Assembly (NCBI GenBank): GCA_958510875.1
Contig: CAUEHT010000001.1
Coordinates: forward strand, 1 to 64,000
Direction of reading: 5' to 3'
Source of the DNA: Endomychus coccineus
Lineage: Eukaryota; Arthropoda; Insecta; Coleoptera; Endomychidae
Length of the DNA: 64,000 bases
Part shown: piece after piece, positions 4,104-61,731 of the stretch
How positions within the stretch are numbered: position 1 is the first letter of the stretch
How the letters are laid out: every line of letters begins with the position of its first letter
Program-made: the position numbers and the translations under genes
The notes under the pieces: generated by a model
Told to the model about the DNA's origin: nothing
Seen by the model: only the letters and a program-made list of their open reading frames with translations
Database searches by the model: none

Positions 4104-4499
4104 CTAAATTTCCGCAATTTTGAATAAGTGTAATTATTCAAATAAATGAATCAGTAGGGATGGCGCCACTTGGGCCCGCCAGACAGAGAGCCTTATCAGA
4201 TGTAGGCAACCAGTGATACACTCGTGCATGCGCGGTATGCCCAGACAGGTATCGGTAAGTACTGACCCTGTATTACCGGCCTGGGTAGACGGTGTGGTCT
4301 CGCCTCTAACATCTAGGTGTTACCGGGTAGACGGTTAGGGTGTGGTCTCTGACCGCTAGGGGTCCTTCTGCTATGGTTGTATGATGGAGACCGAGTAGTG
4401 GTAATCAGCCTGTATATACAAGATCGTTCAAGGTAGACAGCAAGCAATATGTGAGGTTAGGGAGAACTTCAATGTAAAGCAGCATCAAAATATTTTTTT

Positions 4500-4568
4500 C
4501 TACACACGGGAATCGAACCCGAGAAATGAAATCCAAAGCCAGCTCCTTAACCGCTCAGCTATGGAGGA
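4500..4568 (-). ncRNA. tRNA-like sequence in left TIR (A and B boxes, no acceptor stem)
   Basis: Read on the minus strand it has a pol III A box TAGCTGAGCGGTTAAGG, a short D-arm pairing GCT/AGC, and a B box GGTTCGATTCC with a 4-bp T stem CGGG/CCCG. The presumed acceptor ends do not pair, so it is a tRNA-derived or tRNA-mimicking piece rather than a working tRNA. The same sequence occurs in the right arm at 16149-16218 (plus). It could drive pol III transcription of the TIR; no function can be shown. Confidence 0.6.
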
Positions 4569-4630
4569 ATTGAGAACAAGCGATTTTAATGTTGTAGATA
4601 TAACCGCAGGGTATCCGGTCTGAGTGATAA

Positions 4631-5359
4631 GTGCGAGTATATTGCAGTCTATATGATGCAGGTAATTTGTTTTTACATGACATCAGTCATGCAGGTATGT
4701 CACGTAGCGAGGTATGGCATGTGAGACTTCATAGCGCTAACCATAGGGGTTTTGAAAGAGTTATAATGGCGCTGTTTATGTATGCTGTCAGTCACGTGAT
4801 TTTTGAAAGAGGCGGGTATTCATCGGAGGTATCATGGGAGGGCTGCTGCTCCTTCATCGGAGTGGGTGTATAGATGGAATGTTATACAGTGTGGAAATGA
4901 TATCTTCTTCTGCATTTCTCAAACGCGATGTTTATAAGGAAATTACTTTCAAAAACGTGTATTCAAGCTGTCTGTACCTTACTTGATTGCTATATTACAA
5001 AATGCGATTTCAATCATCTTAAACATATATGGAAATTATTATTAGTATACAAAATGGAGTTGGAAGACTTCAATGGGGTATGGAATGTGAGGTTATACAG
5101 ATTGTTTATGTATGACGTTAGTCATGTGAATTTGAATGAAGCTGGCGCGATCTCCAACGAGACAGGTGTGTATGTGAGGTTATACAGAGTGTACAGGTAT
5201 AATGATGTCTATCACGCAGGTCTTCAGCGAGGTATCTACCTTGCAGGAGCCTTCAATGAAATGTGGGGTTGTTTGTACATGCCGTTAGTCGCAGGGTTTT
5301 GTCTGAGTTATAATGATATCGTACGCGGCGCATTGTCTGCCCCCACAAGTCTTCAATAA
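4631..5359 (+). other. Two ORF-like stretches over diverged tandem repeats in the left TIR
   Basis: Open frames of 80 codons (4631-4873) and 143 codons (4928-5359). Translated units repeat a loose V.VRLY...MYDVSHV pattern because the DNA itself is an imperfect tandem repeat of roughly 80 bp. They recur almost unchanged on the minus strand at 15844-16086 and 15358-15789. Neither resembles a known protein and I think they are repeat artefacts, though survival of the frames in both arms is noted. Confidence 0.4.
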
Positions 5360-6924
5360 GGGGTCATAACATCTAACATGCGATAGTTTACAAAAAAATG
5401 CTGCTTCTCATAATAGCGATATTTTGAAGCGTTTGCAGAAATAACTATTAAATCATCCTAGGACTTTTTGCTTGATTAGTACTAGCGAGTACAATATTCG
5501 TTATAATATTATAAGTATGCATCATTAGCTTACTTATGCGATAAGGTTGTGCTAAATCATGTCCAACAGCAATGTATTCAACTTGGAATTATCGTAATGA
5601 TGCGCGCGATCCTTCAATGTTAAAGTAGTTTTATAAGTTATCCGAAAGTAATATGAATATATAAAATGTTTTTCCAAAATTAGTTCCGAAGTAAACATAA
5701 TTCGCTATAATATTCATTCATGTATGTTTCATAAATTATCCGATATAAATCAAATAAGTTTATGCTAAATTTGTGTCAGGTTGAACAATATCCACTATCA
5801 TATTTTGCGGTAGAGCTACAGCTGGTTCGAGAGATAAGAAAGATACGCCGATCACCTTCAAACGCGATGAGAATACTTTATTTTAAATCACACATGTAGT
5901 ATGTATATATTCGAATCATATTGATTGTAAATCGCATAATATGACCCGAAATCTAGCTGCTGCTGGGTGTAGCCCAATACCTATACAGAATCTAGACGAA
6001 GCGGTGTTACGCATCACGATGATTATTCGAACTGTCTGTACAGCTCGATTGCTATATAACAAAATACATTTTTAATCATCTTAAACATATAGATGTGCTA
6101 ATATAATTTTTTCAGTATACAAAAATATACTAATAAAACATTTTTCATCGACACACATTTCTTCATAGGATAGTTAGCTTTTTATAAAATTCAATCAATT
6201 TCAATGGGAAACATATATGCGAGGGAGTTTTATAGAGATCGAACTCATTTCCCCAACCACCCAAGAGGTAGAACTATGATGAGGAATAGATGTGGATAAT
6301 GATAATAATCATATGAATATCTTCATAAGCGCTAATGTATATGACATTCAAACACATGCTTCATAAAAGTCTGAATATTGAGTAGAGATTCAACAGCCTG
6401 TCACCATCGTTCACGAACTATGATGGTTCGATGAGGACTCAAACATTGAACAGATGAATCTTTGAGGTTAAATATCTGCTGTAGAAATTACCCCACTTTT
6501 ATTACCTTTTTTATTTGAGAATATCGATATTTCCCATGTAACGGTTTATTGCCTAAAGCTATTTTGTATGCAACATTGTTATCATTTGAGAGCCTACGGG
6601 GGCCTGTGTGTTGGTCGGGGCTAAATGAATATGTTTGACTATTATTACCTGTAGATTTATTTGAGATTCTTCAAGTTTGAGATTGATAACCCACATGAAG
6701 AAAGAAGCTTCAACGAATTGATATCAATGAATATTCGCTATTCTGAATGTGACAACTTTATCGGCTTCAACACTCGAGATAAGAGAGAATATTTACCGCT
6801 GATGTAGGGAAAATCAATATGATGCATACAAATTGGGGTGGGTGAGAACATCAGACTATAGCTTTATGTGTATCGGAATACATAAGGATTTGACGAGTAA
6901 GTGGTGTTTTATTGAATTGAAGAT

Positions 6925-7319
6925 CCGGCGACCATCGTTCACGAACGATGATGACGTCACTGCTTCAAGCCAATGACAGTAACTGATTCAATCCGGCGAC
7001 CATCGTTCACGAACGATGATGACGTCACTGCTTCAAGCCAATGACAGTAACTGATTCAATCCGGCGACCATCGTTCACGAACGATGATGACGTCACTGCT
7101 TCAAGCCAATGACAGTAACTGATTCAATCCGGCGACCATCGTTCACGAACGATGATGACGTCACTGCTTCAAGCCGATGACAGTAACTGATTCAATCCGG
7201 CGACCATCGTTCACGAACGATGATGACGTCACTGCTTCAAGCCAATGACAGTAACTGATTCAACCCGGCGACCATAGTTTACGAACGATGATGACGTCAT
7301 CATCGTTCACGAACTATGA
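6925..7319. repeat. 68-bp tandem repeat with a central inverted motif (5 full copies + partial)
   Basis: Copies start at 6925, 6993, 7061, 7129, 7197 and 7265. Each holds an 8-bp hairpin CATCGTTC-AC-GAACGATG directly followed by TGACGTCA, a palindrome that is also the CRE site bound by CREB/ATF-type bZIP proteins. Copies are nearly identical (one A/G change in the fourth; the sixth is altered and truncated). The hairpin motif also occurs singly in the TIRs (about 6403, 13907 and 14231). Confidence 0.95.
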
Positions 7320-7412
7320 TGGGCTAAAGAGGAATAAAATGTGAATAATCATAATGTTTGTAATACATTCATGCACATGTTTTATCGCATGATTCAACAC
7401 ATGCTTTAACAT

Positions 7413-8130
7413 TCAGACACGTGTTTAAGTATTCAGACACGTGTTTCAGGCACGTGTTTCAACATTCAGACACGTGTTTCAGCACTCAGACACGTGTTTC
7501 AGCATTCAGACACGTGTTTCAGACACGTGTTTCAACATTCAGACACGTGTTTCTGCATTCAGACACGTGTTTCAGACACGTGTTTCAACATTCAGACACG
7601 TGTTTCAGCATTCAGACACGTGTTTCAGACACGTGTTTCAACATTCAGACACGTGTTTCAACATTCAGACACGTGTTTCAACATTCAGACACGTGTTTCA
7701 GCATTCAGACACGTGTTTCAGACACGTGTTTAAGTATTCAGACACGTGTTTCAGACACGTGTTTCAACATTCAGACACGTGTTTCAGCACTCAGACACGT
7801 GTTTCAGCATTCAGACACGTGTTTCAGACACGTGTTTCAACATTCAGACACGTGTTTCTGCATTCAGACACGTGTTTCAGACACGTGTTTCAACATTCAG
7901 ACACGTGTTTCAGCATTCAGACACGTGTTTCAGACACGTGTTTCAACATTCAGACACGTGTTTCAGCATTCAGACACGTGTTTCAGACACGTGTTTCAAC
8001 AATGAGACACGTGTTTCAGCATTCAGACATGTGTTTCAGACACGTGTTTCAACATTCAGACACGTGTTTCAACATTCAGACACGTGTTTCAGACACGTGT
8101 TTCAACATTCAGACACGTGTTTCAACATTC
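7413..8130. repeat. CACGTG-rich minisatellite (20-bp and 13-bp units)
   Basis: Alternating units of the form ACATTCAGACACGTGTTTCA (20 bp) and GACACGTGTTTCA (13 bp). I count about 39 CACGTG sites, each in the 8-bp palindrome ACACGTGT, the canonical E-box for bHLH proteins. A higher-order repeat of 305 bp is visible (GTGTTTAAGT at 7421 and 7726). All open frames here are artefacts. It sits just upstream of the structural genes, where an enhancer or replication/packaging element could be. Confidence 0.95.
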
Positions 8131-8224
8131 ATGCCTATTTAACATGTATTTGATACCTGATTTTGACAGAAGCGTAGAAGTACCTAACCGCGTGATCAGA
8201 CATACACAATATAACATCATCATC

Positions 8225-8235
8225 TAGTATATAAA
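8225..8235 (+). promoter_or_regulatory. TATA-type promoter motif upstream of the ATPase gene
   Basis: TAGTATATAAA ends 17 bases before the ATG at 8253. The same 11-mer lies at 10936-10946 before the penton-like gene. A start about 30 bases past the TATA would give almost no leader. Confidence 0.45.
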
Positions 8236-8252
8236 CAAATGCTTATTAACAT

Positions 8253-8698
8253 ATGTTCCAGTATGATTTCGATTCGCCTTCAGGCATGATGAAGATTGTT
8301 AAGCAAAAAGACTCGTTGAGCATTATGAACTTAGGCTCAAGCAATGAGAATGTAGAACAACCACAACGTCACAGCTCTTTGCTGCCTAATACTCTACGAA
8401 CAATAATCTGTGGTCCAAGTAATTGTGGGAAAACAAATGTGACGTTATCTCTATTGTTAGATGCTAACGGCCTGAAATTCGAAAACGTGTACATATATTC
8501 AAAGTCTTTACACCAACCAAAATACCAGTTACTAAAGGAGACATTGAAGAAAATTGAGGGGCTTGGATATTTTCCTTGTACCGAAAGTTATGTAGCGTAT
8601 GTTGGAAAGGTGAATATGGATTCCTTATGATAAACAAAGACTGTGATATGAACAAAGGACGTTATCGCAAAGGTTTTGATAGTTATATATACATCTAA
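8253..8698 (+). pseudogene. A32/FtsK-HerA-type packaging ATPase, internally deleted
   Basis: The N-terminal 125 codons (8253-8630) hold a Walker A P-loop GPSNCGKTN at about 8412-8438 and the following ENVYIYSKSLHQPKYQ. This is the start of the DNA-packaging ATPase of Polintons and related viruses, which pumps DNA into the capsid. The frame ends early, at 8628. From 8615 a different frame encodes a short basic tail containing NKDCDMNKGRYRKGFDS up to a stop at 8696, which looks like the protein's C-terminal end. The middle with Walker B and sensor residues is missing, so one internal deletion with a frame change is the simplest reading. It should be unable to hydrolyse ATP for packaging. Confidence 0.8.
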
Positions 8699-8740
8699 CA
8701 TGTATATATACTTTCATTTGAAATAGACAATCCGCTCAGC

Positions 8741-9796
8741 ATGGACGTAGGTGTGAGTAACATGCTTGAAGAAAAACAACAATTGAAGAAAAAAAATTGG
8801 GAGTTAGCAAACGTTGTGAGGAAAAAATATATGGCTGTGAAATTGGGTAAAGCTGAAAATGATGAGATTCTAGATAATATGTTCAGGAAAGTATCTAAAC
8901 CTCTGGAGGAAATTGCGAGAAATGCTGAAATAATCAAACAAAATTCGTTGGTTAAACCTAAAAGTATTGTTTCTACAGCAACACAAATGGAGAACATACC
9001 AACCCCAAATATTGTAACTGAAGGTGAAGAATTCGTATATAACCCCCAAGATACTGAGGAGGATGTGTTTACACCCGAACCTACTATCGATCAGATTCGT
9101 GAAGAATTCAGAAAACATAAGAAAGATAATGCAGCGGCTACAGAGGAGTTTCTGCAACAATACCCCACATTAGCACGTTATTACTTGGAAGGATTCCTAT
9201 TGGATGATGATGTCAAGAAATACGATGATAGAATGGGATTGCAATATAATTCAACTTCAGACAAATGGTTCATGGGTAATCAACCTATAGAAATTGATAG
9301 TGAGAGTAATATAATTATCAAGGGTACTCCGTTCAAAGGTACCACAGGACTGTATAATTTGATATTTTACAGAGATGTTCTACCTGATACTTACACTGTG
9401 GAAGATGGGAAAAATTACAGTCAAATGATGGAAATGACTAGTGCCCATAGACGTAATAACGATCCAGCTGATCGAATAAGGAACATTGTAAAATACAAAC
9501 ATGTACTGAAACCTTTGATTAATTCCATGAAAAGACCCAGAGCCAAAACATACACTGGAGGTGCATATATCAAAAATGATATGCTTGAATATAACGAGAA
9601 ACCTATCGAATATGTTTATTGGGATGACGTTAACGAAATTGTGGATAGACTGAGACTTCTTGTTGCATCCTCGCATGCAGGTAACAATAACGAGATAATC
9701 TCTATAATAGAAGAATTGATAGAGGCAGGGGTAATTGAACAAAAACCAGGTGTAAGACAAATTCATCACAATTATAAAGATGGTTTCAATGGATAA
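8741..9796 (+). CDS. DUF8207-like protein of insect Polinton-type elements (351 aa)
   Basis: Open from ATG to stop. Seen: an N-terminal coiled-coil-prone, Lys/Glu-rich stretch (residues 1-75), an acidic linker, then a compact domain with KGTPFKGTTGLYNLIFYRD (about 195-215) followed by YSQMMEMTSAHRR (about 226-239). This pattern is one I associate with the uncharacterised DUF8207 family in arthropod repeats; the name is from memory and unverified. A role as a minor virion or DNA-associated protein is inference from its place between ATPase and capsid genes. It overlaps the next gene by 17 bases in another frame. Confidence 0.65.
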   Translation: MDVGVSNMLEEKQQLKKKNWELANVVRKKYMAVKLGKAENDEILDNMFRKVSKPLEEIARNAEIIKQNSLVKPKSIVSTATQMENIPTPNIVTEGEEFVYNPQDTEEDVFTPEPTIDQIREEFRKHKKDNAAATEEFLQQYPTLARYYLEGFLLDDDVKKYDDRMGLQYNSTSDKWFMGNQPIEIDSESNIIIKGTPFKGTTGLYNLIFYRDVLPDTYTVEDGKNYSQMMEMTSAHRRNNDPADRIRNIVKYKHVLKPLINSMKRPRAKTYTGGAYIKNDMLEYNEKPIEYVYWDDVNEIVDRLRLLVASSHAGNNNEIISIIEELIEAGVIEQKPGVRQIHHNYKDGFNG

Positions 9797-10436
9797 GTTT
9801 GGCAGAGCCTCCTCTTCCATGTGGATATATGATACAAATGTATTTAATAATAATTTCAAACAAGTTCACGGACAAGGATTATTCCTAACGAGCGATGGGA
9901 GTTATGATATGGAAAATCGTAGATTGTGCAACGTAAAATCACCGAATGATGATGGAGATGTTGCAAATAAAGTATATGTTGATAAATTAACACACAAACT
10001 GAATCTGAAAACGGAAACCAGTCTTAAAGATACCTTCAATGTTAGGGTTGATAATTTGATCAAAGATATCAACAAAGACCTGGATGAACATAACTTAACG
10101 AATGAGAAGGTTATTCTCAACATTGATAAACATCTGATGGACATTCAGAATAAATATAATGAAATGGGAATCTATATAAAATCAGAGTATAAAACAATCA
10201 GTGATAGTGTGAGGGAAAACAGAAATGAATTGAAAGAGATCAATAACACATTTAACAGTGTGAACATGCCTCTAAATGACATTACTAGTAAAGTGGAGGC
10301 GTTAGAACGACGGATGACATCTGTGGAACCTTCTAAGAAGAGACCCTCATCATCCACAACAACAACAAAGCAGGGCTCTGTGAAACGTATATCTCCAAAT
10401 CCTGTGAATATACCCAAAAAATTAATTCTACACTAG
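9780..10436 (+). CDS. Fibre-like virion protein with coiled coil (218 aa)
   Basis: The N-terminal part contains GSYDMENRRLCNVKSPNDDG then DVANKVYVD (residues about 40-70). That D.....I.NV..P....DA.NK.YVD arrangement is the repeat found in phage tail fibres and similar trimeric fibres. Residues about 70-175 are rich in heptad-like I/L/V spacing with charged residues (long coiled coil), and the tail is Ser/Thr/Lys-rich and low-complexity. It may form a trimeric spike or fibre on the capsid. The ATG lies inside the end of the preceding gene. An AATAAA at 10615-10620 follows. Confidence 0.6.
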   Translation: MVSMDKFGRASSSMWIYDTNVFNNNFKQVHGQGLFLTSDGSYDMENRRLCNVKSPNDDGDVANKVYVDKLTHKLNLKTETSLKDTFNVRVDNLIKDINKDLDEHNLTNEKVILNIDKHLMDIQNKYNEMGIYIKSEYKTISDSVRENRNELKEINNTFNSVNMPLNDITSKVEALERRMTSVEPSKKRPSSSTTTTKQGSVKRISPNPVNIPKKLILH

Positions 10437-10453
10437 ATTTCCACATTGATAAG

Positions 10454-10531
10454 ATGAGTAGAGAACAAGTTTTGCATGAGCTTCATGAGCACAGAAGAAA
10501 GAACTTTTACCAGCATATGCAATACGACTAG
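10454..10531 (+). pseudogene. Possible N-terminal stub of Polinton integrase
   Basis: An ATG-initiated 25-codon frame (MSREQVLHELHEHRRKNF...) ends in TAG at 10529. The LHEL...RRKNF wording resembles the segment just before the catalytic core of retroviral-type integrases in arthropod Polintons. Nothing of the DDE core follows. The match is short, so this is only a candidate for the deletion scar of the integrase gene. Confidence 0.3.
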
Positions 10532-10698
10532 GACGATGAATCAAGAGTCAAGATTGAGATATTTGAAACATATATTGTTAAGATTATACTTAAGTCTTTT
10601 GTATTGAGAAAATTAATAAAAAGATTATTTTGAGATCTTTGGTCTTCCTCCCACCCCTCGTTAAATAACGGTGCAATCTTGAATTCTCATCAGTCTGT

Positions 10699-10920
10699 AT
10701 GGAAGCGTACGTAGGAGAAGGTGTTCCCAATACGCTTATAAACAAGCTCCCGTTTGAACTTCGAATCAATACCAGAGGCAAAACTAGAAGAACGATTGAG
10801 GAGATCCAAGGTATCAATTCATTCGATAAAGTTTGCAGTCAACACGATATTTCATGCAATATAACACTTATAATCGTAGCCTGTTATATTTGGAATTCCT
10901 CTCTAACTCTTCAGTTGTGA
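10699..10920 (+). pseudogene. Phospholipase-A2-like relic (73 aa)
   Basis: The frame holds NTLINKLPFELRI and, at about residues 38-52, GINSFDKVCSQHDIS with a D...C..HD pattern like the catalytic helix of parvovirus/Polinton-type PLA2 domains, where the HD pair activates water to cut membrane lipids. The upstream calcium-loop glycines expected in the family are not visible (the region reads RGKTRRTIEEIQ), so the enzyme is probably dead or misaligned. Small PLA2 proteins in related elements help entry. The C-terminal 20 residues look like non-coding readthrough. Confidence 0.45.
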
Positions 10921-10935
10921 TCGATTAGCATTTAT

Positions 10936-10946
10936 TAGTATATAAA
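10936..10946 (+). promoter_or_regulatory. TATA-type promoter motif upstream of the penton-like gene
   Basis: TAGTATATAAA, identical to the motif at 8225-8235. It ends 10 bases before ATG 10957 and 28 bases before ATG 10975, so a transcript starting about 30 bases downstream would favour the second ATG. Confidence 0.5.
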
Positions 10947-10956
10947 TAGATTGTTG

Positions 10957-11718
10957 ATGAAGTTTTCATCAAACATGTCTCAGACGTTCACTATCACGGG
11001 TAAGAGCTCCCGCTTATCTGTAGATTTTCACCCACCTATAGAACTAGATCCTCATTCATATTATTCTATCGCACTTGTTGGTTTGCATACGTACAATAGC
11101 ATCCCGAACATTGAAGAAGGTTTTAATAAATTTTATTATGAAGATGTGAAGGGTGAGGAAAAAGTAGTTACTATACCTACGGGGTCCTACGAGTTGACAG
11201 ACATCGAGGATTTCATACAAAGTGCAGTTTGTGGGATAGGAGTGGAGCAAGAAGAACGTGACCGGAAATTATCAATAAAATCTAACAACAACACTCTACA
11301 CACAGAGCTGAAGAGTGATTTTGAAGTGAATTTTATTCCTAAAGATAGTATAAGCGAACTGTTGGGATTCAGCAAAAAGAAATTGACATCTCGTGAACTA
11401 CACGTATCTGATCGACCTATAAACATAATCAAAGTTCAAACTATACGCGTAGAGTGTAACTTAACCGCAGGAGCATATTATAACAATAAGGTAGCTCATA
11501 CGATATATGAGTTCTCACCTCTTGTACCACCTGGGTTTTCCATTGATATAGAGCCGAAGAATCTTATTTATCTACCGGTCATCAGCAAGACGTCCTTCGA
11601 TAACATCACGCTGAATATTTTAGATCAGAATTGGAAACCGGTAAATTTTTGTGGAGAAGAAATTATTATACGATTGGAATTGAAAAAGATCGCTAGGGAT
11701 TATGGCTCACAACAATAA
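10957..11718 (+). CDS. Minor capsid (penton-like) protein, about 248-254 aa
   Basis: Open reading frame with ATGs at 10957 and 10975; the second (MSQTFTITGKSS) is the better fit to the TATA box and to the beta-rich start. The protein is beta-strand-rich throughout, with SYYSIALVGLHTYNSIPNI near residue 35, LGFSKKKL near 135 and a conserved-looking VRIL-type C-terminal strand region. This profile, its length and its place just before the major capsid gene match the penton proteins (single-jelly-roll type) of Polintons and relatives, which close the capsid vertices. AATAAA overlaps the stop (11714-11719). Function is inferred from family and context. Confidence 0.6.
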   Translation: MKFSSNMSQTFTITGKSSRLSVDFHPPIELDPHSYYSIALVGLHTYNSIPNIEEGFNKFYYEDVKGEEKVVTIPTGSYELTDIEDFIQSAVCGIGVEQEERDRKLSIKSNNNTLHTELKSDFEVNFIPKDSISELLGFSKKKLTSRELHVSDRPINIIKVQTIRVECNLTAGAYYNNKVAHTIYEFSPLVPPGFSIDIEPKNLIYLPVISKTSFDNITLNILDQNWKPVNFCGEEIIIRLELKKIARDYGSQQ

Positions 11719-11798
11719 ATAATAATCCAATACTCACCACCACTCATTATATGAAAGGAATTCAACTGAGAAGGTTGCAGTAGCCATCACTTGAGAAC

Positions 11799-12014
11799 AT
11801 GGGTTTGGATTTTAGCAATAAAAGACATCTCCATAGTGGTCATCAGTCATTATCTACAACGAGCTCGAGGGAGAAGGTTGCTCCTGCATCACTGTCATTG
11901 AAGAAGGAGAAGGTTGCTTCTGCATCACTATCATTGGAAAATATAAATTTTTTGAAGTCCCTTGGTTACAATGTCGGAAAAACTTCAAATATTCAACGAG
12001 CCAAACTTCATTGA
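11799..12014 (+). CDS. Small basic ORF overlapping the major capsid start (71 aa)
   Basis: ATG at 11799. It contains a two-copy internal repeat (EKVAPASLSLK / EKVASASLSLE) from a tandem DNA duplication, then NINFLKSLGYNVGK. It ends 43 bases inside the next gene in another frame. Short proteins with an NI.FLKSLG motif precede capsid genes in some related elements (memory, unverified) and could be a small virion peptide. It may equally be chance. Confidence 0.35.
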   Translation: MGLDFSNKRHLHSGHQSLSTTSSREKVAPASLSLKKEKVASASLSLENINFLKSLGYNVGKTSNIQRAKLH

Positions 12015-13173
12015 AGACATCATCCGGGAAGAAACTCATACCTACTATCCACACACAACATCTTTTGGCAACAGCGATGAAATTGAGATATTAATCAATC
12101 AACAAGATGTGTTGGTAGATTTGGCATCGTCTGCTTTATTCATCGAGGCAGAATTCCAGCCAGAAGCAAGTGGTGATGGTGAATGTAAACTAACGAATAA
12201 TTTCGGAGCGTTTCTCTTCGAATATATCAGTTATGAATTGAATGGAAAAGAGATAGACAAAGTACGTGATCCTGGTATTGTCAGCACCATCAGAGCTTAT
12301 CTAACATATGCCAAACATGAATCTATACCTCTAGCTATTTCTGGATGGTCGTTTAAGGATGCATTGAGTTCAGTCCACAATAATAAAATCAATTTATGGA
12401 TACCGTTGAATTTTCTACTAGGCCTATTCATTGACTATAACAAAGTCTTGAGTGGAAAACATAAGCTGCGCTTGATAAGGTCTCGAACCGATAACGATTG
12501 CTATACTAATAGCACAGGCACGAAAACGGCTAAAATAAATGTGAAGACGATAGCATTAAAAGTGCGACATGTGTTTCCAAGTGATCAGGTTAAATTTCAA
12601 ATGTTGGAGAATTTGAGTGCTGAGAAGCCTATTTTGATTCCATTTCGCAGCTGGGATCTGCATGAAAATCCGTTGATGAAGGAGAGCACTCGTGACATTT
12701 GGGCTGTTAAAACTTCAATGAATTTGGAACGTCCCAGATATGTGATTTTAGCTTTCCAAACTGATCGAAAAAATAATCCTGTTAAGCACAGTGCATATTT
12801 CGATAATATAAACTTGCTAAATGTAAAATTATACTTGAATTCAGAGTGTTATCCATATGAAGCAATGAAATTGAATTTCACCGACCAGCAATACGTGGAA
12901 GCATACCAGATGTACTATGATTTCCAGAAATCATTTTCAAATAAAATAATAAGCGAACCCATGTTAGATTATATAGCATTCAAGAATAGAGCAATTTTTG
13001 TGATTGACTGTTCAAAACAAAACGATGCTATAAAGTCATCAACAGTTGACGTCAAACTAGAGATGGAAAGTTTCCTGAATTTCCCCAAAAACACCAGGGC
13101 TTATTGCATCATCATTAACGATCGTATAATGGAGTATTCTCCAATTACAGGATCAGTTCGGAGTTTAGTGTGA
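11971..13173 (+). CDS. Major capsid protein, double-jelly-roll type (400 aa)
   Basis: ATG at 11971 (MSEKLQIFNEPN); an upstream in-frame TTG at 11962 is not needed. The frame is intact. Seen: a beta-rich protein with paired barrel-like halves, FGAFLFEYISYELNGKEIDK near residue 70, WIPLNFLLGLFIDYNK near 145 and a C-terminal IIINDRIMEYSPITGSVRS. It belongs to the arthropod/nematode family often annotated as F54H12.2-like, which I take to be a Polinton-type major capsid protein forming hexagonal capsomers in nuclear-assembled particles. ATATAAAT lies about 25 bases upstream and AATAAA at 13224-13229 downstream. No break is visible, in contrast to the ATPase. Confidence 0.75.
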   Translation: MSEKLQIFNEPNFIEDIIREETHTYYPHTTSFGNSDEIEILINQQDVLVDLASSALFIEAEFQPEASGDGECKLTNNFGAFLFEYISYELNGKEIDKVRDPGIVSTIRAYLTYAKHESIPLAISGWSFKDALSSVHNNKINLWIPLNFLLGLFIDYNKVLSGKHKLRLIRSRTDNDCYTNSTGTKTAKINVKTIALKVRHVFPSDQVKFQMLENLSAEKPILIPFRSWDLHENPLMKESTRDIWAVKTSMNLERPRYVILAFQTDRKNNPVKHSAYFDNINLLNVKLYLNSECYPYEAMKLNFTDQQYVEAYQMYYDFQKSFSNKIISEPMLDYIAFKNRAIFVIDCSKQNDAIKSSTVDVKLEMESFLNFPKNTRAYCIIINDRIMEYSPITGSVRSLV

Positions 13174-13223
13174 AGAACCATGAATTATAATGTTATTATT
13201 TTAATTCTAAATGTATTTTTCTA

Positions 13224-13229
13224 AATAAA
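13224..13229 (+). terminator. Polyadenylation signal AATAAA after the major capsid gene
   Basis: AATAAA 51 bases past the stop, followed within 30 bases by a T-rich stretch (TTATTATTATTATTTTT). Confidence 0.5.
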
Positions 13230-13532
13230 TGTTATTATTATTATTTTTGGTATTTTATTTCTCTCACTTTCCCGCAAGACATCACAATAATGAACGAGCC
13301 GTTTGGTAAAGTACAGTCCCTTGGATCAACCCATCAGGATTGTAATCTAAATTATAAATATTGCTTCAGAGTTAGAAACAAAAAAAATTATGTTACTATC
13401 TAATTAATAAATATAAATATACTTTTGTTTTATTACCTGTTTGCATATAATGTTCCTCAAAAGTGATTCAGATTATTATGTTATCTTTTCAATTATTATA
13501 ATATGTAGTACCTAGTGGTTATAAGACAGTTT
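13230..13532. other. AT-rich spacer between capsid gene and right TIR
   Basis: No gene seen. A 38-codon ATG frame at about 13290 (MNEPFGKVQSLG...) has no recognisable features. Confidence 0.6.
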
Positions 13533-16500
13533 GCGGTAAATATTCTCTCTTATCTCGAGTGTTGAAGCCGATAAAGTTGTCACATTCAGAATAGCGAATA
13601 TTCATTGATATCAATTCGTTGAAGCTTCTTTCTTCATGTGGGTTATCAATCTCAAACTTGAAGAATCTCAAATAAATCTACAGGTAATAATAGTCAAACA
13701 TATTCATTTAGCCCCGACCAACACACAGGCCCCCGTAGGCTCTCAAATGATAACAATGTTGCATACAAAATAGCTTTAGGCAATAAACCGTTACATGGGA
13801 AATATCGATATTCTCAAATAAAAAAGGTAATAAAAGTGGGGTAATTTCTACAGCAGATATTTAACCTCAAAGATTCATCTGTTCAATGTTTGAGTCCTCA
13901 TCGAACCATCATAGTTCGTGAACGATGGTGACAGGCTGTTGAATCACGTGCTAAACAAGTGTCTGAATGTTGATAATGATCGCTTATGATGATACTATAG
14001 CTCTACTCAATGTTCAGACTTTTATGAAGCATGTGTTTGAATGTCATATAGATTAGCGCTTATGAAGATATTCATATGATTATGTAAACCCGTGAAGAAA
14101 AATGTGTTTATCATTATAATCTTTTACGCGAACGTATGGAGTTTGTAAAAGTTGTGCTCGTGAAGGAAAATGTACAGATTGCTAATGGAAATATTTATAT
14201 AATTATTATTGGTATTTTATTCCTCATCAGCCCATCATAGTTCGTGAACGATGATGACAGGCTGTTGAATCACGTGCTAAACAAGTGTCTGAATGTTGAT
14301 AATGATCGCTTATGAAGAAGATACTATAGCTCTACTCAATATTCAGACTTTTATGAAGCATGTGTTTGAATGTCATATAGATTAGCGCTTATGAAGATAT
14401 TCATATGATTATTATCATTATCCACATCTATTCCTCATCATAGTTCTACCTCTTGGGTGGTTGGGGAAATGAGTTCGATCTCTATAAAACTCCCTCGCAT
14501 ATATGTTTCCCATTGAAATTGATTGAATTTTATAAAAAGCTAACTATCCTATGAAGAAATGTGTGTCGATGAAAAATGTTTTATTAGTATATTTTTGTAT
14601 ACTGAAAAAATTATATTAGCACATCTATATGTTTAAGATGATTAAAAATGTATTTTGTTATATAGCAATCGAGCTGTACAGACAGTTCGAATAATCATCG
14701 TGATGCGTAATACCGCTTCGTCTAGATTCTGTATAGGTATTGGGCTACACCCAGCAGCAGCTAGATTTCGGGTCATATTATGCGATTTACAATCAATATG
14801 ATTCGAATATATACATACTACATGTGTGATTTAAAATAAAGTATTCTCATCGCGTTTGAAGGTGATCGGCGTATCTTTCTTATCTCTCGAACCAGATGTA
14901 GCTCTACCGCAAAATATGATAGTGAATATTGTTCAACCTGACACAAATTTAGCATAAACTTATTTGATTTATATCGAATAATTTATGAAACATACATGAA
15001 TGAATTTTATACCGAATTATGTTTACTTCGGAACTAATTTTGGAAAAACATTTTATATATTCATATTACTTTCGGATAACTTATAAAACTACTTTAACAT
15101 TGAAGGATCGCGCGCATCATTACGATAATTCCAAGTTGAATACATTGCTGTTGGACATGATTTAGCACAACCTTATCGCATAAGTAAGCTAATGATGCAT
15201 ACTTATAATATTATAACGAATATTGTACTCGCTAGTACTAATCAAGCAAAAAGTCCTTAGATGATTTAATAGTTATTTCTGCAAACGCTTCATAATATCG
15301 CTATTATGAGAAGCAGCATTTTTTTGTAAACTATCGCATGTTAGATGTTATGACCCCTTATTGAAGACTTGTGGGGGCAGACAATGCGCCGCGTACGATA
15401 TCATTATAACTCAGACAAAACCCTGCGACTAACGGCATGTACAAACAACCCCACATTTCATTGAAGGCTCCTGCAAGGTAGATACCTCGCTGAAGACCTG
15501 CGTGATAGACATCATTATACCTGTACACTCTGTATAACCTCACATACACACCTGTCTCGTTGGAGATCGCGCCAGCTTCATTCAAATTCACATGACTAAC
15601 GTCATACATAAATAATCTGTATAACCTCACATTCCATACCCCATTGAAGTCTCCCAACTCCATTTTGTATACTAAAAATAATTTCCATATATGTTTAAGA
15701 TGATTGAAATCGCATTTTGTAATATAGCAATCAAGTAAGGTACAGACAGCTTGAATAAACGTTTTTGAAAGTAATTTCCTTATAAACATCGCGTTTGAGA
15801 AATGCAGAAGAAGATATCATTTCCACACTGTATAACATTCCATCTATACACCCACTCCGATGAAGGAGCAGCAGCCCTCCCATGATACCTCCGATGAATA
15901 CCCGCCTCTTTCAAAAATCACGTGACTGACAGCATACATAAACAGCGCCATTATAACTCTTTCAAAACCCCTATGGTTAGCGCTATGAAGTCTCACATGC
16001 CATACCTCGCTACGTGACATACCTGCATGACTGATGTCATGTAAAAACAAATTACCTGCATCATATAGACTGCAATATACTCGCACTTATCACTCAGACC
16101 GGATACCCTGCGGTTATATCTACAACATTAAAATCGCTTGTTCTCAATTCCTCCATAGCTGAGCGGTTAAGGAGCTGGCTTTGGATTTCATTTCTCGGGT
16201 TCGATTCCCGTGTGTAGAAAAAAATATTTTGATGCTGCTTTACATTGAAGTTCTCCCTAACCTCACATATTGCTTGCTGTCTACCTTGAACGATCTTGTA
16301 TATACAGGCTGATTACCACTACTCGGTCTCCATCATACAACCATAGCAGAAGGACCCCTAGCGGTCAGAGACCACACCCTAACCGTCTACCCGGTAACAC
16401 CTAGATGTTAGAGGCGAGACCACACCGTCTACCCAGGCCGGTAATACAGGGTCAGTACTTACCGATACCTGTCTGGGCATACCGCGCATGCACGAGTGTA

Positions 16501-16564
16501 TCACTGGTTGCCTACATCTGATAAGGCTCTCTGTCTGGCGGGCCCAAGTGGCGCCATCCCTACT
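13533..16564. repeat. Right terminal inverted repeat of the Polinton (3032 bp)
   Basis: Inverse of 4154-6799. It is longer because of a local duplication: a block beginning CATCATAGTTCGTGAACGAT at about 13907 recurs at about 14231, with a 130-bp unique insert before the second copy that the left arm lacks. Both blocks contain a unit (ACAAGTGTCTGAATGTTG, reverse complement) close to the minisatellite at 7413-8130. Mirror ORF-like stretches lie at 15358-15789 and 15844-16086 on the minus strand. Confidence 0.92.
16149..16218 (+). ncRNA. tRNA-like sequence in right TIR
   Basis: Mirror of 4500-4568: A box TAGCTGAGCGGTTAAGG, B box GGTTCGATTCC, then an A-rich run and TTTT at about 16230 that could end pol III transcription. 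Acceptor strands do not pair. Confidence 0.6.
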
Positions 16565-16570
16565 TGAATC

Positions 16571-36730: not shown

Positions 36731-39700
36731 ATGTCATCTCGAGGTTCATTGATGTTAAGCTTAGTTAAACAAAAAGGTATGTATACATGAATCTTAATAC
36801 TGATCTTCTAAAAACTCTAAAATCTAATCTAAAGCCATATAACCTACTTTGAATAATTCCCGCCCTAAATAAATCTTAAAGTCTACTGTGGAAAAGAGTG
36901 TTCGTGATTTTACTATTACTTAAAAATTCTATACATATGAACAGAGTATATAGATAAATTTCATTTGAAGATACAACTTTCTGAATTTAATATTATGAAG
37001 GACTGTGTCTAACTATGATAATATTTACGCATTTAAAATGTGAAAGTTCTTCAGAACATTTTTTTTACACTCATCGAATATGATTCAGGCTATCTTATTC
37101 CCAACAAATTCTGCTAAAATCTAGACCACTAATAAACATGGAAATTTGATGGAAGATAATATACAATTGAATATAATATAAAAATTATGAATATATTCAC
37201 CGAAACTTCTCATTGAAAATTTTCACTTCTAGTTTCAATCTCTGGCGCATTTTGAATTGAAATATTCTTTAATCTCTATCGCTTCCAGTTGTGCTGAGAC
37301 CGTAGCTTATATTTATTTCTCTTTTCAATCTGTTTCATTATTGTTTGTTTTGATTTCTTTTAACTAATGCACAAAGAGAAATACAAACCTATAAAAACAT
37401 CAAAACGATTCTGGTACATCTCCTAAGTAACTATGAATCTTTTCTACAGATGAATCAAATATTGCTGCTGAAAAATCACCTATGATAATATGTAATCAAG
37501 AAAGTTCGGTGAGTCATTTTTAAAATTCTTTTCGTATAAGATGATTACTATATACTAAATTGCTTTCTTGAATGTATATTCATTCATTTGTTTGTTTTTA
37601 GAAATACAGTACAGGAAGCAGTCCCATTGAATTTGACGACCAGTATAATTCTGAAGTTGATAACAATAAAGAGAATTTGGATAGTTATTGTCTACATAGT
37701 CAAGATTCATTTACTGAAATTAAAAAAAAACTGTATGCTATCGTAACTCTCAGATTGATAATTATGAATGTAATAATGATTCATACAATTTTGAAAATCA
37801 AGATGAGCTTCGTTTGTGTGCTGAAAATAAAAATTCAGCATATATCCGTGAATTCATTCTGAATGAATCAACTGATTTTGATAACCTACCACTATTGCAA
37901 ACGACGTTCAGAATGTGATTCAAAATGATAGTAGCACTTGTTTTTGTAGAAAAATAAGCAAATCTAAGGCATGCTTGGAGGATATTTGCGAATGTGCATA
38001 CGTATCAGAAACTTTCTCGTCAGATTCTACTGACAATAATTCTGACTCTGATTTCTTTGACTTGGAAGCTTATTCCAATTTTGTTGATAGGATTCCAAAA
38101 ACTCTAGAAATGTGTACATCTGATAGTCCAAGAGATAATATTACAGTTACATCAAATTCTTTTATGAAAGATTTTACGGACAATGTCGTCGACAAGAGTA
38201 AAGTTATTGAAACATCCTTACTGGAAAGTATTCCTACTGAAACAGCCACTGACGATACTAACTCAGATTCTGATGTGAATAATCATTTTGATTTTGAGTC
38301 CTCTGGCAGTTCAGAGATTTTGGATTCTTCTACTACATCAAAACGAAATATATCTTTCATTCCAGAAAACACAAATGGAAATGCTCCAAAACAAAGTATA
38401 TTTTCAATTCAAAAAACCACAAATGAGAATGACCTAGAAGATGCACCTCTCTCAGAGAGATTACGGAATGAGAGAAGAGAAAATTTAAAAGTTATGCGAT
38501 GTACATTTTGTGAAAATGATATAGCTACAAAAAATTTCATGAGGCATTTGAAGAGAAATCATCAGGATGAGAATGAAGTACGTAAAATTTTCGAGTTTCC
38601 GAAACGTAGTTAAGATAGGCGAAAAGCTTTAGCTTTACTAAGGAATGACACCAACTTCAATCTCTACATAAATGGAGAAGTAAGACCTAACAGAAAACGC
38701 AATGAGAAGCTCGGTTTAAGTTACACTAAATATTATCCTTGTGAGTTTTGTAAAGGTTTATATCTGAAGAGTTATTTGAAACGACATGCTAAAAGTTGTG
38801 GATATAACAAAGCTTCTCAAAATCTGTAAAATACTAGGATGAAACATTTAGGGAATTCACAAACATTAACTGCTTGTGCTATAGATCCAACTAATGTTAT
38901 ATCTCAACTGGACATAAAAGAGAAGGTTTTCCAGATAATGAAAGCGGATGATATAAGTTTCGAAGCTAAAAAAGATCTTCTTATAGCGAATTTTGGTGAG
39001 TCCTATCTAAAAAAGCATAAGAGAGAGCGCATGGCCTATGCATGCAGTAATAGAATGAGAGAGCTTTCGCGTCTTCTAATTCGGTATCGCCTGATTGTAA
39101 ATAACAAAGATCTCCAATTTAAAAATTTACTCCATCCAAAGAATTTTGATAATGTAGTTGCTGCAACACGAAGTATTGGGGGTTATGACCATATTAAAGC
39201 GCCTAGTCTTGCTATGCATATGGGAACCTCATTGAAACATGCCTGCGATGAATTGATCCATTTAATTTTACGACTAAGTAAGGGATTCAAATGTGAAACA
39301 ACAACAGTAGAAAGATTATGGTTGCAAAACATTCGAGATTTCAAGGACTTAGTTCAATCTCGTTGGAATACAGAGTTATCATCTCTTGCTAATGAAGACC
39401 TACAGGAGAAACGTTGGGAAAAACCGCTACTCTTGCCATTGGTGAGTGACATAAAGACATTTCGGGAAAAAAATTGCAAATGGCAAACGAATGCACTCTT
39501 CATCTACTCGAAAATACTGATACCAATAATGTACATCGTTACAAAACTCTGGTGCAATGCACTCTGTCATTATTAATACTGTTTAACAGGAGACGTATTG
39601 GTGATGTCCAGTACTTGAAATTAAAAGATTACCAAAATGACAAAAGAAGTAACACGACAGATTTTGAAAGTGCCTTATCAGAAACTGAAAAGATTTTAAC

Positions 39701-39915
39701 AACGAAATATAAAAGAGTCATCAATAGTGGGAAAGGAAGCAGAGCTGTGGTAATTTTGGTACCAGAAATACTGCAGAAATTTATGGACACATTATTATAC
39801 CATCGCTCTAAATTCATTCCACAAAATAATGAATATGTGTTCGCAATTCCGGGAAGCACTCTAAAATGAGGAAGAGGAGATATTACTATGAAAGCTTTGG
39901 TGAAGAAGATACCCC
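36731..39915 (+). pseudogene. Tyrosine-recombinase (Crypton-like) gene with zinc fingers, truncated by copia
   Basis: Exon 1 36731-36776 (MSSRGSLMLSLVKQK), exon 2 37450-37508, exon 3 from 37602, all with GT/AG borders that keep frame. A long acidic Ser/Asp-rich region follows, then two C2H2-type fingers (MRCTFCENDIATKNFMRHLK near 38490 and YYPCEFCKGLYLKSYLKRHA near 38735), a helical core-binding domain (38839 onward), and LLILFNRRRIGDVQYLKLKD at about 39560-39625, where the Arg matches the first catalytic Arg of tyrosine recombinases. Later H..R and Tyr motifs are missing because of an in-frame stop at 39867 and a copia LTR at 39916. Frameshifts occur near 37725, 37905 and 39470, plus stops at 38611 and 38827. 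Family placement is by motif only. Confidence 0.6.
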
Positions 39916-42808: not shown

Positions 42809-42847
42809 GATTAACCTTTTTGTTTGTCCTAAAATCAAAAATTGAAT

Positions 42848-44911
42848 ATGCCTAAAAGTAACTTGAAAAAAATTATTTCAAAAAGACAACAATACCGGCG
42901 AATTAAAAAGGAAGTTGAAAATTTTTTTGCTAACAATTCTGAAACAAATATTATCAATAGTCTTGTCGCAAGTTGCCAAAATATTTGCCAAACTAATTCA
43001 GACTTTGATTGTTCTTTCCCTCATGAGTCTGATAACTTTAACAATTGTTCTTTAGATTTATCTGATTATTCTGATCATAACTCATCTTCAAATAGTGATA
43101 ATAATAACGATGATGATAGCGATAATAATGTTGAGAGTAGTTGCAATTCATTAGATTTAAAATCGCAGTTACGTATTTGGACAGCTTCTTGTTGTGTCAA
43201 TCATGCAACCGTAAATAAATTACTGCATATTTTGTCGGATTATCATCCAGAACTTCCTTTGGATAGTCGTACATTAATGTCGACTCCTAAGCATTTTGAA
43301 ACGGTTAAATTAATGAACGGAGAATACGTTCATTTGGGTTTAGAAAGAGCAATACCGCAATTTCTCAAACAAAATCCTAATTTTATCGAAGAAAAAATAC
43401 AGGTAAGTTTTAACATGGACGGATTGCCTTTATTTAAGAGCAGTAACGTAGAATGTTGGCCTATATTAGGTTTAATTAAAAATGAAAATTTTAATATAAA
43501 TCCTTTTGTTATTGGAATATATTGTGGTTCATCTAAGCCTAAACCATTAGAACTATATTTGGAACAGTTTGTTGCAGAATGTAAACGTATGCAAAAGGGA
43601 TTTGATTTTAATAATAAAAAATTCTGGTTGAAAATTCATAGCTTTATATGTGATGCTCCCGCTAAAGCTTTTGTCAAATCTATCAAATCTACCTGTGGAT
43701 ATTCTTCTTGCGACAAGTGTGAAGTTTCTGGTGAATATGTAAAAAATCGAGTTGTTTTGAATGATCTGTCTTCAAAAAAGAGGACTGATCAATCTTTCAG
43801 AGCTTTAGCAGATGATGATCATCATACCGGAATAACTCCATTGATTGAATTAGAAATTGATATGGTTAACACTTTTCCATGTGACTATATGCATAACGTT
43901 TGCTTAGGAATTATGCGAAAATTACTCAACTATTGGGTAAGTGGAAATAATTTTTCAGTAAAGTTATCTAGTAGCAAAATAAATTTGATATCAAAAAATT
44001 TAATTGAATTAAAGCCATTTATTCCAATTGAAATAAATAGAAAATCTCGATCGCTTTCCGATTTAGCCCGATATAAAGCTACTGAATATAGAACTTTTCT
44101 TTTATACACCGGCATTGTTGTCTTAAAAAAAATTGTTAGTGACTCTGTTTATAAGCATTATCTTTTATTACATGCTGCTGTTTCATTTTTGATGTTGGTC
44201 GAAGATGAAAGTGACTGTCAGTTAGCATCGAAGTTTATTGAAACTTTTATTGTATATGGCGTTCAAATTTATGGTTCAGAGTTTCCGATATACAATATCC
44301 ATATGGCAAGTCATTTATGTGATGATGTTCGTCGTTTTGGAAAGCTGGATAACTTTTCAGCTTTCCCTTTCGAAAATCATTTAAAAATGATTAAAAATTT
44401 AATTCGGTCTAGTAAAAGTCCAATTCAACAGATTTGCAGAAGATTATCGGAATTTGATGAAGCAATGTTGGCAAACATTTCGAAAACCACGAATAATAGA
44501 ACAGGAACATGTTATATGAAACATAATGAAGGACCATGTATAAACCATAATTTTCTGTTTAGTCAATTTAAAAAAATACAATTAGATTGTTTTGTATTAA
44601 CAACTTTTATGTACAGTAGAGCTAATTGTTACTTTTTTACTAATAATTTTGTAGTACGCGTCGAAAATATCTTACAACAGCACACCAGTAAAGAGATAAC
44701 TTTAATAGGTAAAAAATTTCAAATGAAACCAGATAACTACTTTTACAAATATCCTATCGATTCACGACGTCATAAAATATGTACTGTATCTGATCTAGCT
44801 TTAGAAAATGAACCATGGCCTCTTTCATGTATTGAAGGCAAAACCATGCTACTACCACAAAAAAATTCTGTATTTGTTTGTATACCTTTATTGCATACCA
44901 GGCAGAGTTAA
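42848..44911 (+). CDS. EnSpm/CMC-type transposase-like protein (688 aa)
   Basis: ATG at 42848 (MPKSNLKKIISKRQ); no intron, no break. An Asp/Asn/Ser-rich acidic stretch at residues 45-105 precedes the catalytic part: VSFNMDGLPLFKSSN, SFICDAPAKAFVKS, CGYSSCDKCEVSGEY, then DMVNTFPCDYMHNVCLGIMR, and later SAFPFENHLKMIKNLIRSS. The MDG, DAPA and DYMH acids fit the DDE layout of CACTA/EnSpm (CMC) transposases, which cut near short terminal repeats. It follows the DUF4806 gene by 39 bases in the same direction, so the two form the gene pair of one DNA transposon. It is the largest intact ORF in the window. Confidence 0.7.
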   Translation: MPKSNLKKIISKRQQYRRIKKEVENFFANNSETNIINSLVASCQNICQTNSDFDCSFPHESDNFNNCSLDLSDYSDHNSSSNSDNNNDDDSDNNVESSCNSLDLKSQLRIWTASCCVNHATVNKLLHILSDYHPELPLDSRTLMSTPKHFETVKLMNGEYVHLGLERAIPQFLKQNPNFIEEKIQVSFNMDGLPLFKSSNVECWPILGLIKNENFNINPFVIGIYCGSSKPKPLELYLEQFVAECKRMQKGFDFNNKKFWLKIHSFICDAPAKAFVKSIKSTCGYSSCDKCEVSGEYVKNRVVLNDLSSKKRTDQSFRALADDDHHTGITPLIELEIDMVNTFPCDYMHNVCLGIMRKLLNYWVSGNNFSVKLSSSKINLISKNLIELKPFIPIEINRKSRSLSDLARYKATEYRTFLLYTGIVVLKKIVSDSVYKHYLLLHAAVSFLMLVEDESDCQLASKFIETFIVYGVQIYGSEFPIYNIHMASHLCDDVRRFGKLDNFSAFPFENHLKMIKNLIRSSKSPIQQICRRLSEFDEAMLANISKTTNNRTGTCYMKHNEGPCINHNFLFSQFKKIQLDCFVLTTFMYSRANCYFFTNNFVVRVENILQQHTSKEITLIGKKFQMKPDNYFYKYPIDSRRHKICTVSDLALENEPWPLSCIEGKTMLLPQKNSVFVCIPLLHTRQS

Positions 44912-56245: not shown

Positions 56246-57352
56246 TTAATGTTCAATTGGTAAAACACAAAGTTTCTGCACTGCACGCTTCGTAATACCT
56301 GTAGACGTCTTCACACTAACTATGCGTATAATACCATCGTTTCCTGGATACAATTCGACAATACGTCCCAATTTCCAACATACTGGTGGCATATTTTCAT
56401 TGACTAATATAACCATCATACCAATTTTGAATTCCACATTTGAAACATCCTTCCACTTCGTTCGATTTTGCAAACTTAGCAAATAATCCTTGGACCAATG
56501 TTTCCAGAATAATTGGATGACTCGTTGTAGTGTTTGATATTGATCAAGCCGATTTTGTGAAATTTCGCTTATGTCTGTCTGAGGAAAGGAAGTCAGAGCA
56601 TTTCCAATAAGGAAATGACCAGGAGTCAATGCTTCGAAATCATCGGGATCTTGAGTTAAAGGAATTAATGGTCGGGAATTAATAATAGCCTCTATACGTA
56701 CAAACAGAGTATATAACTCTTCAAAAGTTAAATGGGAACTATTACTTCCTATAACACGTAATAAATGAAACTTTGCTCTTTTCACTGCAGCCTCCCACAA
56801 ACCTCCATGATGTGGTGAATAAGGCGGAATAAATTGCCACCTGATTCGATTTTGCAAAAAAAACTCAGAAAATTCAGACCCATCCAATGATTGTTTCAAC
56901 TGTTCATAAATGAGTTTTATCTCATTATCTGCTCCCGTGAAATTTGTACCATTGTCTGAATATATAATCTTAGGCAATCCACGACGCGAGACGAAACGTT
57001 TAAATGCGTTTAAAAATGAAACAGTGCTAAGATCACTTACAGCCTCCAAATGTACAGCCTTTGTACTAAAACATATAAAGATGCACAAATATGCTTTAAT
57101 GATCGCCCTATTACGTAATTTACCATCTTTAATATGGTAAGGACCTGCAAAATCTACGCCACTTACATAAAATGGACGATTGGGCACAACTCGATCTTTA
57201 GGTAAATCAGCCATTTTATTGATAATTTTTATTGGATTAATTCGGAAACAAGTAATACATTTGTTTAATACGCTGCGAATTGTTGATCGACCGTTCAAAA
57301 TCCAATATCGTTCTCTGATTGATGCTAAAAGTGTTTGCACCCCAGCATGGAG
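56246..57352 (-). pseudogene. BEL/Pao integrase and C-terminal domain
   Basis: Same frame as the RNase H part but separated by a TAA at 57353-57355, so no native start. Seen: LHAGVQTLLASIRERYW and CITCFRIN (zinc-binding head), YVSGVDFAGPYHIK (first Asp), IIYSDNGTNFTGADNE (second Asp), PPYSPHHGGLWEAAVKRAKF (Glu), then WKLGRIVELYPGNDGIIRIV, the DUF5641-like tail. It joins retrotransposon DNA into the genome. Confidence 0.9.
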
Positions 57353-58340
57353 TTATCTGTTATGTTCACTTCGAATTATTAATGTAGTCAACGAATGTTT
57401 CGAGTCAAGAATAATTTGATGTTTAGTTTTGTATGGCAATTTAGCTCTAGTTATTCTTCCACCAACTCTTAAAAAACCACTTACATCTAAAAATGGACTT
57501 AACGAACATAACTTAGATTTTTTCGATACTTTTGGAAAATTGATATCCGAATTTTTTAGATCATTGATTTCACGTTCAAACGATTGATATTGAGCTATTT
57601 TCAGTAATACATTCAAAGCTGATTCCATCTCATTTATATCAATTGCACCTCTTAATTTTGTTCGAAATCTAAGACAAAGTGCAACTACACGGATTATTCG
57701 ATATAACGATGAAAATCTTCCGAATAATTCAAAATTTGGGATAACACTTACAGATGAAATTTTTATAGTTCGCTTTTCTGGTAAATCTTGTTCGATATTA
57801 TCCAAATTTGGATAATGTATTGAGCTTAGCTGAAGCCATTTAGGTCCCTGCCACCAAAGTAAATTATTGTTAAGTTCAATCGGACCCATTCCTCTTGTTA
57901 AAATATCTGCTGGATTATCACGAGTACTAACATGTCTCCAATCTTTGATCTCTATTCTTTTTTGTATCTCTGATACACGATTTGCTACGAAAACCTTCCA
58001 ACTGTTCGGACAAGCCCTGATCCACGATAACACAATAGTGCTATCTGTCCAAAAAAATGATTGATTGATATTGATTTTTATAGAATCAAAAACTTTTGAA
58101 TAAAGACATGCTAATAATACAGCACCCATAAGCTCAAGACGCGGTAATGTTAAGCATTTCAATGGAGCTACTCTAGTCTTTGAACACAATAATCTTATAA
58201 TTGTTCCATTGGTTGATACTGTTTTTAAATAAATACAAGCTCCGTACGCCCTTTGTGATGCATCACAAAATCCATGAAGTTCGATTACCTTCAATGAAAT
58301 TGATAGAACATGTCGAGGAATATCTATTTCGTTTATTTTC
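57353..58340 (-). pseudogene. BEL/Pao RNase H and connection domain
   Basis: The frame has ELHGFCDASQRAYGACIYL (first Asp), LPRLELMGAVLLACL (Glu), WTDSTIVLSWI (Asp) and NPADILTRG (final Asp), the four acids of RNase H. It is offset by one base from the RT frame; the switch falls near 58330-58350. Confidence 0.88.
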
Positions 58341-60539: not shown

Positions 60540-60587
60540 ATCTTGAAATGATGGCGATTTATTTTTTCTCTCGAAAAGATGTTCTCT

Positions 60588-61448: not shown

Positions 61449-61731
61449 TTGATGAATTAAATTGAATCTGTTTAAGACCACCAAGAAAGAACAAAGTTTC
61501 ACAATTCGTTAATTAATATTCTGTATTATACTACTATCTGTACAAAAACAGGCTAATGATTGGATAAGGAATGATTGGGAAAGGAAAAGACAGGAACAGA
61601 CTTACGAATTCAGACAATTTCACTTATCTGTAAAATGGCCGTCAAATTACGTTGATGCTATCTGATGTCAATTCGAGTTATTGAATTCTTCAATCGATTG
61701 TTGCTTCAAATCCAGACGAAGGACCAAAATA

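Follow-up and report, generated by a model that had tools for sequence, protein, structure and literature searches.

How does an element that carries the genes of a virus particle multiply within a genome, when no gene for copying or inserting it can be recognized in its sequence? The question is raised by a Polinton-like element of the beetle Endomychus coccineus that lies in the first 64,000 nucleotides of contig C4 (C4:1-64000; this whole stretch is called the window), and the 906,413,582-bp assembly in 129 contigs was searched for its relatives. A sequence-only reading of the window had described the element as a Polinton that kept its virion genes but lost its replication, integration and packaging enzymes. 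The analysis described here suggests that it belongs to a high-copy Polinton-like family, which has kept the virion genes and whose replication and integration are probably carried out in trans by other elements.

Virion genes of the element and its family

The element is composed of an inverted repeat, minisatellites, ATPase, DUF8207-related frame, fibre-like frame, phospholipase remnant, penton, capsid and a second inverted repeat, and its virion genes all lie on the + strand (Table 1). Its termini, AGTAGGG...CCCTACT at 4153 and 16564, conform to the AG...CT inverted repeats with 6-bp target duplication that characterize Polinton/Maverick elements (TGAATC in the window; TAGGTA in another copy, L042). 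The double jelly-roll major capsid protein, a further hallmark, is recognized both by PF21738 and by its fold, since the model (pLDDT 87) was matched by Foldseek to the capsid proteins of PBCV-1, Sputnik and mavirus (E 1e-15 to 5e-14); among the named relatives listed, the nearest are from beetles (Sitophilus 53%, Molorchus 52%, Aromia 50%, Tribolium 48%). The penton, or minor capsid protein, expected of these elements is also present, and its model (pLDDT 88.6) has the mavirus penton as top match (E 1.4e-10), followed by adenovirus penton base. The 365-aa frame has 302 relatives, and PF26634/DUF8207 is carried by the 120 of them listed, while the frame itself matched no DUF8207 model at E<=1 (Pfam). 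The 226-aa frame contains a coiled coil and has weak matches to phage head and tail-fibre families (E 1.5e-4 to 6e-4). The phospholipase-A2-like gene is truncated in the window and full length in a canonical Polinton family of the same genome (loci L009/L010).

No polymerase B, integrase, protease, helicase, primase or recombinase was found in the element at E<=1 when its six frames were compared with Pfam (X at stops), a scan that could overlook a diverged protease. The protein-primed polymerase B, rve integrase and cysteine protease by which Polinton/Maverick elements are recognized are thus lacking in these frames, and tblastn did not find an integrase in copies L041 and L042. The A32/FtsK-type ATPase is present in copies of the family and broken in the window, where, in comparison with L041 and L042, 280 bp are deleted at 8586-8592 with a 7-bp overlap at the junction. 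No relatives were found among IMG/VR viral contigs via the capsid, a capsid alignment or the ATPase fragment.

Much of what had been read from the letters is borne out by these results. The capsid, penton and DUF8207-like frames are open and supported by Pfam, structure models and relatives, and the proposed jelly-roll modelling of both capsid proteins gave models that match viral counterparts; polymerase B and protease are missing from the Pfam scan, and the ATPase is indeed without its middle. The fibre-like frame is open, its name being weakly supported. The integrase, thought to be at most a stub, is absent and no stub was found, and the unit is bounded by TGAATC duplications as described, with its start at 4153 and not at 4154.

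The family is large, and the concern that only one copy might exist can be put aside. A 30-mer, chosen as invariant in 30 copies of the capsid gene, has 1,363 genome matches at up to 2 mismatches (reversed control 0), a count of word matches and not of whole genes, and in a DNA search with the capsid gene the best 40 of 1,730 candidates were all 99-100% identical over nearly the full gene. The 30-base terminus has 66 genome matches at up to 2 mismatches, which form 25 inward pairs; 22 of the 25 span 10.9-13.0 kb (median 12,362), and the remaining three 6.5, 19.9 and 25.5 kb. Six pairs, the window's included, enclose a capsid gene among those listed, and one encloses polymerase B twice. A second copy was not found when the element was compared with the rest of the window.

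The gene order recurs from copy to copy. The repeat block lies downstream of the capsid gene in 30/30 capsid loci (the window's included), and about 10 kb read upstream in L041 and L042 holds the repeat, minisatellites, ATPase, DUF8207 and fibre-like frame. Ten further copies (L053-L062) were sampled upstream of the capsid gene, 2.2 kb from each. Together with L041 and L042 they make 12 other copies, of which 11 have the ATPase next to the minisatellite block. The gene has an uninterrupted frame of 242 codons in 10, is broken in L055 and does not occur in the sampled stretch of L058, a rearranged copy; the intact protein matches Pox_A32 above cut-off (L041). Polymerase B was not detected by tblastn in the stretches fetched from 11 other copies (L042, L053-L062). 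L042 is flanked by a duplication of its own (TAGGTA), and its ends read AGTAGATG; its repeats agree at 99.75% in the 1,627 bp compared, and its DUF8207 frame is split. For L041 the right end was not found. It seems characteristic of the family to lack polymerase, integrase and protease. The window copy is a slightly decayed member of the family, because its ATPase deletion was not found in the ten copies with an open ATPase. Among the copies sampled, this loss of the packaging enzyme is peculiar to the window copy, and a recently deleted copy, one of the explanations first offered, fits the ATPase only.

Polymerase genes on insertions with the same ends

Where, then, might a polymerase come from? 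A genome search with the PF03175 profile gave 201 rows, with 76 loci scored of 1,489 candidates, and five of the 76 lie near a terminus of the window type, within three elements. The one read whole (C5:47100053-47117687; pieces L051, L050 and L052) measures 17,635 bp between TATATG duplications and contains polymerase B, a zinc-finger frame and a matrixin-type metalloproteinase. Its left end corresponds to the window end over 62 bp at 98.4%, and a 126-bp block of the inner repeat is 91% identical to that of the window. No virion genes were found in it by tblastn with five window proteins, and no integrase, either as a significant match to that of L009 or among the five L050 frames (Pfam). The metalloproteinase (L050:7285-8856; C5, minus) has 524 aa, an M10 domain (4.4e-31) and hemopexin and PG-binding domains. 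Another element, the half-read L049, carries polymerase B (PF03175 3.5e-46), and no significant similarity to the window proteins was found in it. Judged from where its two polymerase genes lie, it would be a near-palindrome of 19.9 kb. In all, two elements have a pair of inverted polymerase B genes, like giant palindromes, one at C5:69627345-69647206 (half read) and one from C5:82049446 onward. None of the 76 polymerase loci has a listed capsid gene within 16 kb, a weak test, with loci collapsed by hand from the listed part of the 201 rows and capsid lists made up of the best 126 of 3,836 and the best 40 of 1,730 candidates.

Shell and polymerase genes are thus found on separate insertions with common ends, and an integrase was found in neither, an arrangement that leads to either a shell-carrying satellite or a split-genome Polinton. 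By way of the common ends the protein-primed polymerase of the partner could copy the shell element; an integrase supplied from elsewhere, for instance by the canonical Polinton family, would insert both, and the shell element's own ATPase and shell could package its DNA and perhaps that of the partner. As a satellite it would depend on the replication proteins of a helper, its own replicase being absent in the Pfam scans. More tentatively, the two might be segments of one split-genome Polinton, about 12.4 kb for shell and packaging and about 17.6 kb for polymerase B and a secreted metalloproteinase, which have common ends and spread jointly while inserting separately; this would make a dsDNA jelly-roll lineage multipartite inside an insect genome. 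What separates the two readings is whether the dependence is mutual, with the polymerase element requiring the shell element as well.

A canonical Polinton that could supply an integrase is present in the same genome, because the L009/L010 locus on C1 carries one (rve 8.4e-13; chromodomain just below cut-off). The locus also holds a DUF8207-like frame, an A32-type ATPase, phospholipase A2, penton and capsid. Its 1,237-aa frame is polymerase-like, with a DTDS motif and weak polymerase similarity, and was not confirmed as polymerase B by Pfam. All eight of the loci L001-L008 encode a penton and a capsid protein, at about 38-41% identity. Other capsid families have multiplied too: the best 126 of 3,836 candidates are mostly open over ~400 aa, with many identical scores.

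The same C1 locus gives substance to another explanation, that of a purely parasitic satellite of complete Polintons, in which the polymerase-only elements are further deletion derivatives; it has to be reckoned with in earnest, if short of being probable. The palindromic polymerase element, which resembles an aberrant replication product, would fit it well. It fits less well that the polymerase element has the window's terminus, that the capsid of the complete locus is only 40% identical to the window's, and that neither the window nor the L042 terminus type has a match in the pieces of L009/L010 read, beyond which the ends of that locus may lie.

Several points weigh against replication of the shell family by the polymerase elements. 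The right end of the 17,635-bp element resembles that of the window at only 79% over 86 bp, the inner parts of the two differ, and only this one polymerase element was read whole. With no integrase located in the shell or the polymerase element, the proposed cycle is incomplete, and complete Polintons may do the mobilizing, with the polymerase element irrelevant. For 18 of the 25 end pairs neither capsid nor polymerase is among the matches listed, the interiors of these 18 being unread.

The ends themselves appear mobile between elements. Nothing corresponding to the outer ~335 bp of the window element was found in L042 or in the repeat that belongs to L041. A second element begins at L041:7093-7301, some 14 bp away from where the L041 copy ends, and its end is a hybrid that opens with 84 bp of the window terminus type and continues with the other type. 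Elements thus seem to have exchanged ends, and in this way a shell element could switch helpers.

Selection on the capsid and penton genes

Are the virion genes used? Selection was assessed in the best 30 of 40 scored capsid copies, themselves drawn from 1,730 candidates. The capsid frame is free of frameshift and internal stop in 28 of 30; the penton is free of indels in 23 of 30, one of the 23 having a stop. Capsid codon variants present in two or more copies comprise 12 synonymous and 7 nonsynonymous changes (per-site ratio 0.15, p 5.5e-5), those of the penton 24 and 18 (ratio 0.20, p 4.8e-7). Single-copy variants number 18 synonymous and 45 nonsynonymous in the capsid (ratio 0.63, p 0.07) and 16 and 54 in the penton (ratio 0.92, p 0.43). 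The p-values are indicative only, as shared variants may stem from few ancestral events. Capsid and penton are thus under purifying selection in the variants common to copies, and single-copy variants are nearly neutral. Filtering of the variants inherited through propagation, with near neutrality of those acquired later, is the pattern that functional virion proteins of a spreading element should show. On the other side, copies differ about as little in the 252-bp spacer preceding the capsid gene as in the gene (0.66% vs 0.55%), and therefore similarity alone shows no constraint; the picking of copies by capsid similarity may account for this.

The selection data bear on the idea of neutral leftovers, a replication-deficient deletion derivative recently amplified as passive DNA with its virion genes unused. 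The youth of the repeats and capsid copies (0.53% and, on average, 0.64% divergence) and the near-neutral single-copy variants are what it predicts; the strong depletion of amino-acid changes in shared capsid and penton variants, together with the mostly intact capsid frames, makes it improbable. Two other explanations were set aside. Assembly collapse at the minisatellites (6923-8131), a possible site of the missing genes, is very unlikely, given the identical organization at loci on several contigs and the nearly equal spans of 22 of 25 end pairs. Host use of the capsid proteins, which the open and conserved capsid frames might suggest, is hardly credible for a mobile family with 1,363 dispersed matches, 6-bp duplications and nearly neutral single-copy variants.

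The sequence-only reading had argued that random decay would not spare adjacent structural genes, had asked for dN/dS across copies and had named neutral evolution as the outcome that would speak against it. Its argument is weak alone, because the repeats of the window copy differ by only 0.53%; the comparison across copies supports function, with shared variants far from neutral. Of the options it listed, the capsid-carrying satellite is favoured by the layout in 11 of 12 other copies and by purifying selection on capsid and penton, and host use does not fit.

Layout of the element and relation to known systems

The inverted repeats of the window element are 99.5% identical (14 substitutions in 2,647 aligned bp), with one extra 385-bp tandem duplication confined to the right arm. 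Mutations arise at about 3e-9 per site per generation, and at this rate the 0.53% divergence corresponds to an age of the order of a million generations. A tRNA-like stretch lies at 4499-4568 (minus), with its mirror in the right repeat at about 16149-16218, and it was also seen in L041, L042, L043 and the repeat of the polymerase element (L050). It contains what look like the A and B boxes of an internal pol III promoter; ARAGORN found no tRNA in it and its predicted fold is not a cloverleaf, nor did the window as a whole match Rfam or ARAGORN models. Elsewhere in the window, long open frames read by eye resemble a Pao/BEL-type retrotransposon (56246-61508, minus) and other DNA-transposon proteins (37885-39869 and 42833-44911).

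Table 1. Features of the Polinton-like element and its borders (window positions)
Feature	Position	Strand	Remark
Whole element	4153..16564	+	12,412 bp between TGAATC duplications
Left target duplication TGAATC	4147..4152	.	flanks element
Right target duplication TGAATC	16565..16570	.	flanks element
Left inverted repeat	4153..6799	+	outer ~335 bp of a terminus type not in copy L042
Right inverted repeat	13533..16564	-	contains 385-bp tandem duplication
68-bp minisatellite, 5.5 copies	6923..7299	.	
20/33/53-bp minisatellite	7392..8131	.	
A32-type packaging ATPase, broken	8253..8695	+	middle gone, frame shifted
DUF8207-related frame	8741..9796	+	365 aa
Coiled-coil, fibre-like frame	9780..10436	+	226 aa
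Phospholipase-A2-like gene remnant	10678..10854	+	35.8% to L009 protein, E 7e-9
Penton protein, single-jelly-roll type	10957..11718	+	structure model
Major capsid protein, double jelly-roll	11971..13173	+	PF21738 at 5e-90

The family resembles Polinton/Maverick elements and adintoviruses in its AG...CT inverted repeats, 6-bp duplications, double jelly-roll capsid, penton and, in family copies, A32-type ATPase; it differs in its very long repeats, its virion genes on one strand and the lack of a detected polymerase B, rve integrase or protease. Adintoviruses are defined, in the part of the source consulted, by an OTU-bearing polymerase B, a hexon and a chromodomain integrase (PMC11071296), and neither polymerase nor integrase was found in the window element by six-frame Pfam. 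Polinton-like viruses and 'meldviruses', as presented in excerpts of PMC11071308 and PMC11071296, carry jelly-roll virion genes without polymerase B and integrase and have other replication genes instead. The window element is similar to the viruses so described in the first respect and differs in the second, as no substitute replication genes were found in it by six-frame Pfam. With mavirus-type virophages it has in common the nearest solved penton, that of mavirus, and helper dependence as an idea. Mavirus itself encodes both a polymerase and an integrase, and its helper is a giant virus. The segments of bidnaviruses and Vesanto virus share ends. According to the portions of PMC8363768 and PMC11071296 consulted, these viruses have segmented genomes and belong to a lineage with protein-primed polymerase B. 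A genome in segments with such a polymerase is what the split-genome reading would have in common with them, and these viruses differ, on the same excerpts, in their single-stranded DNA and parvovirus-type capsid, with no double jelly-roll capsid. No capsid-only or split Polinton is named in the titles or abstract openings of the literature searched.

Usual non-autonomous DNA transposons keep their ends and lose their genes, whereas the shell family keeps virion and packaging genes under selection. Selected virion genes, no copying genes and a very high copy number would make packaging or particle formation part of the spread of the family, which has a bearing on the debated formation of virions by animal Polintons. 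Because a polymerase-bearing element has ends in common with the family, either helper dependence or a multipartite Polinton can be put to a direct test.

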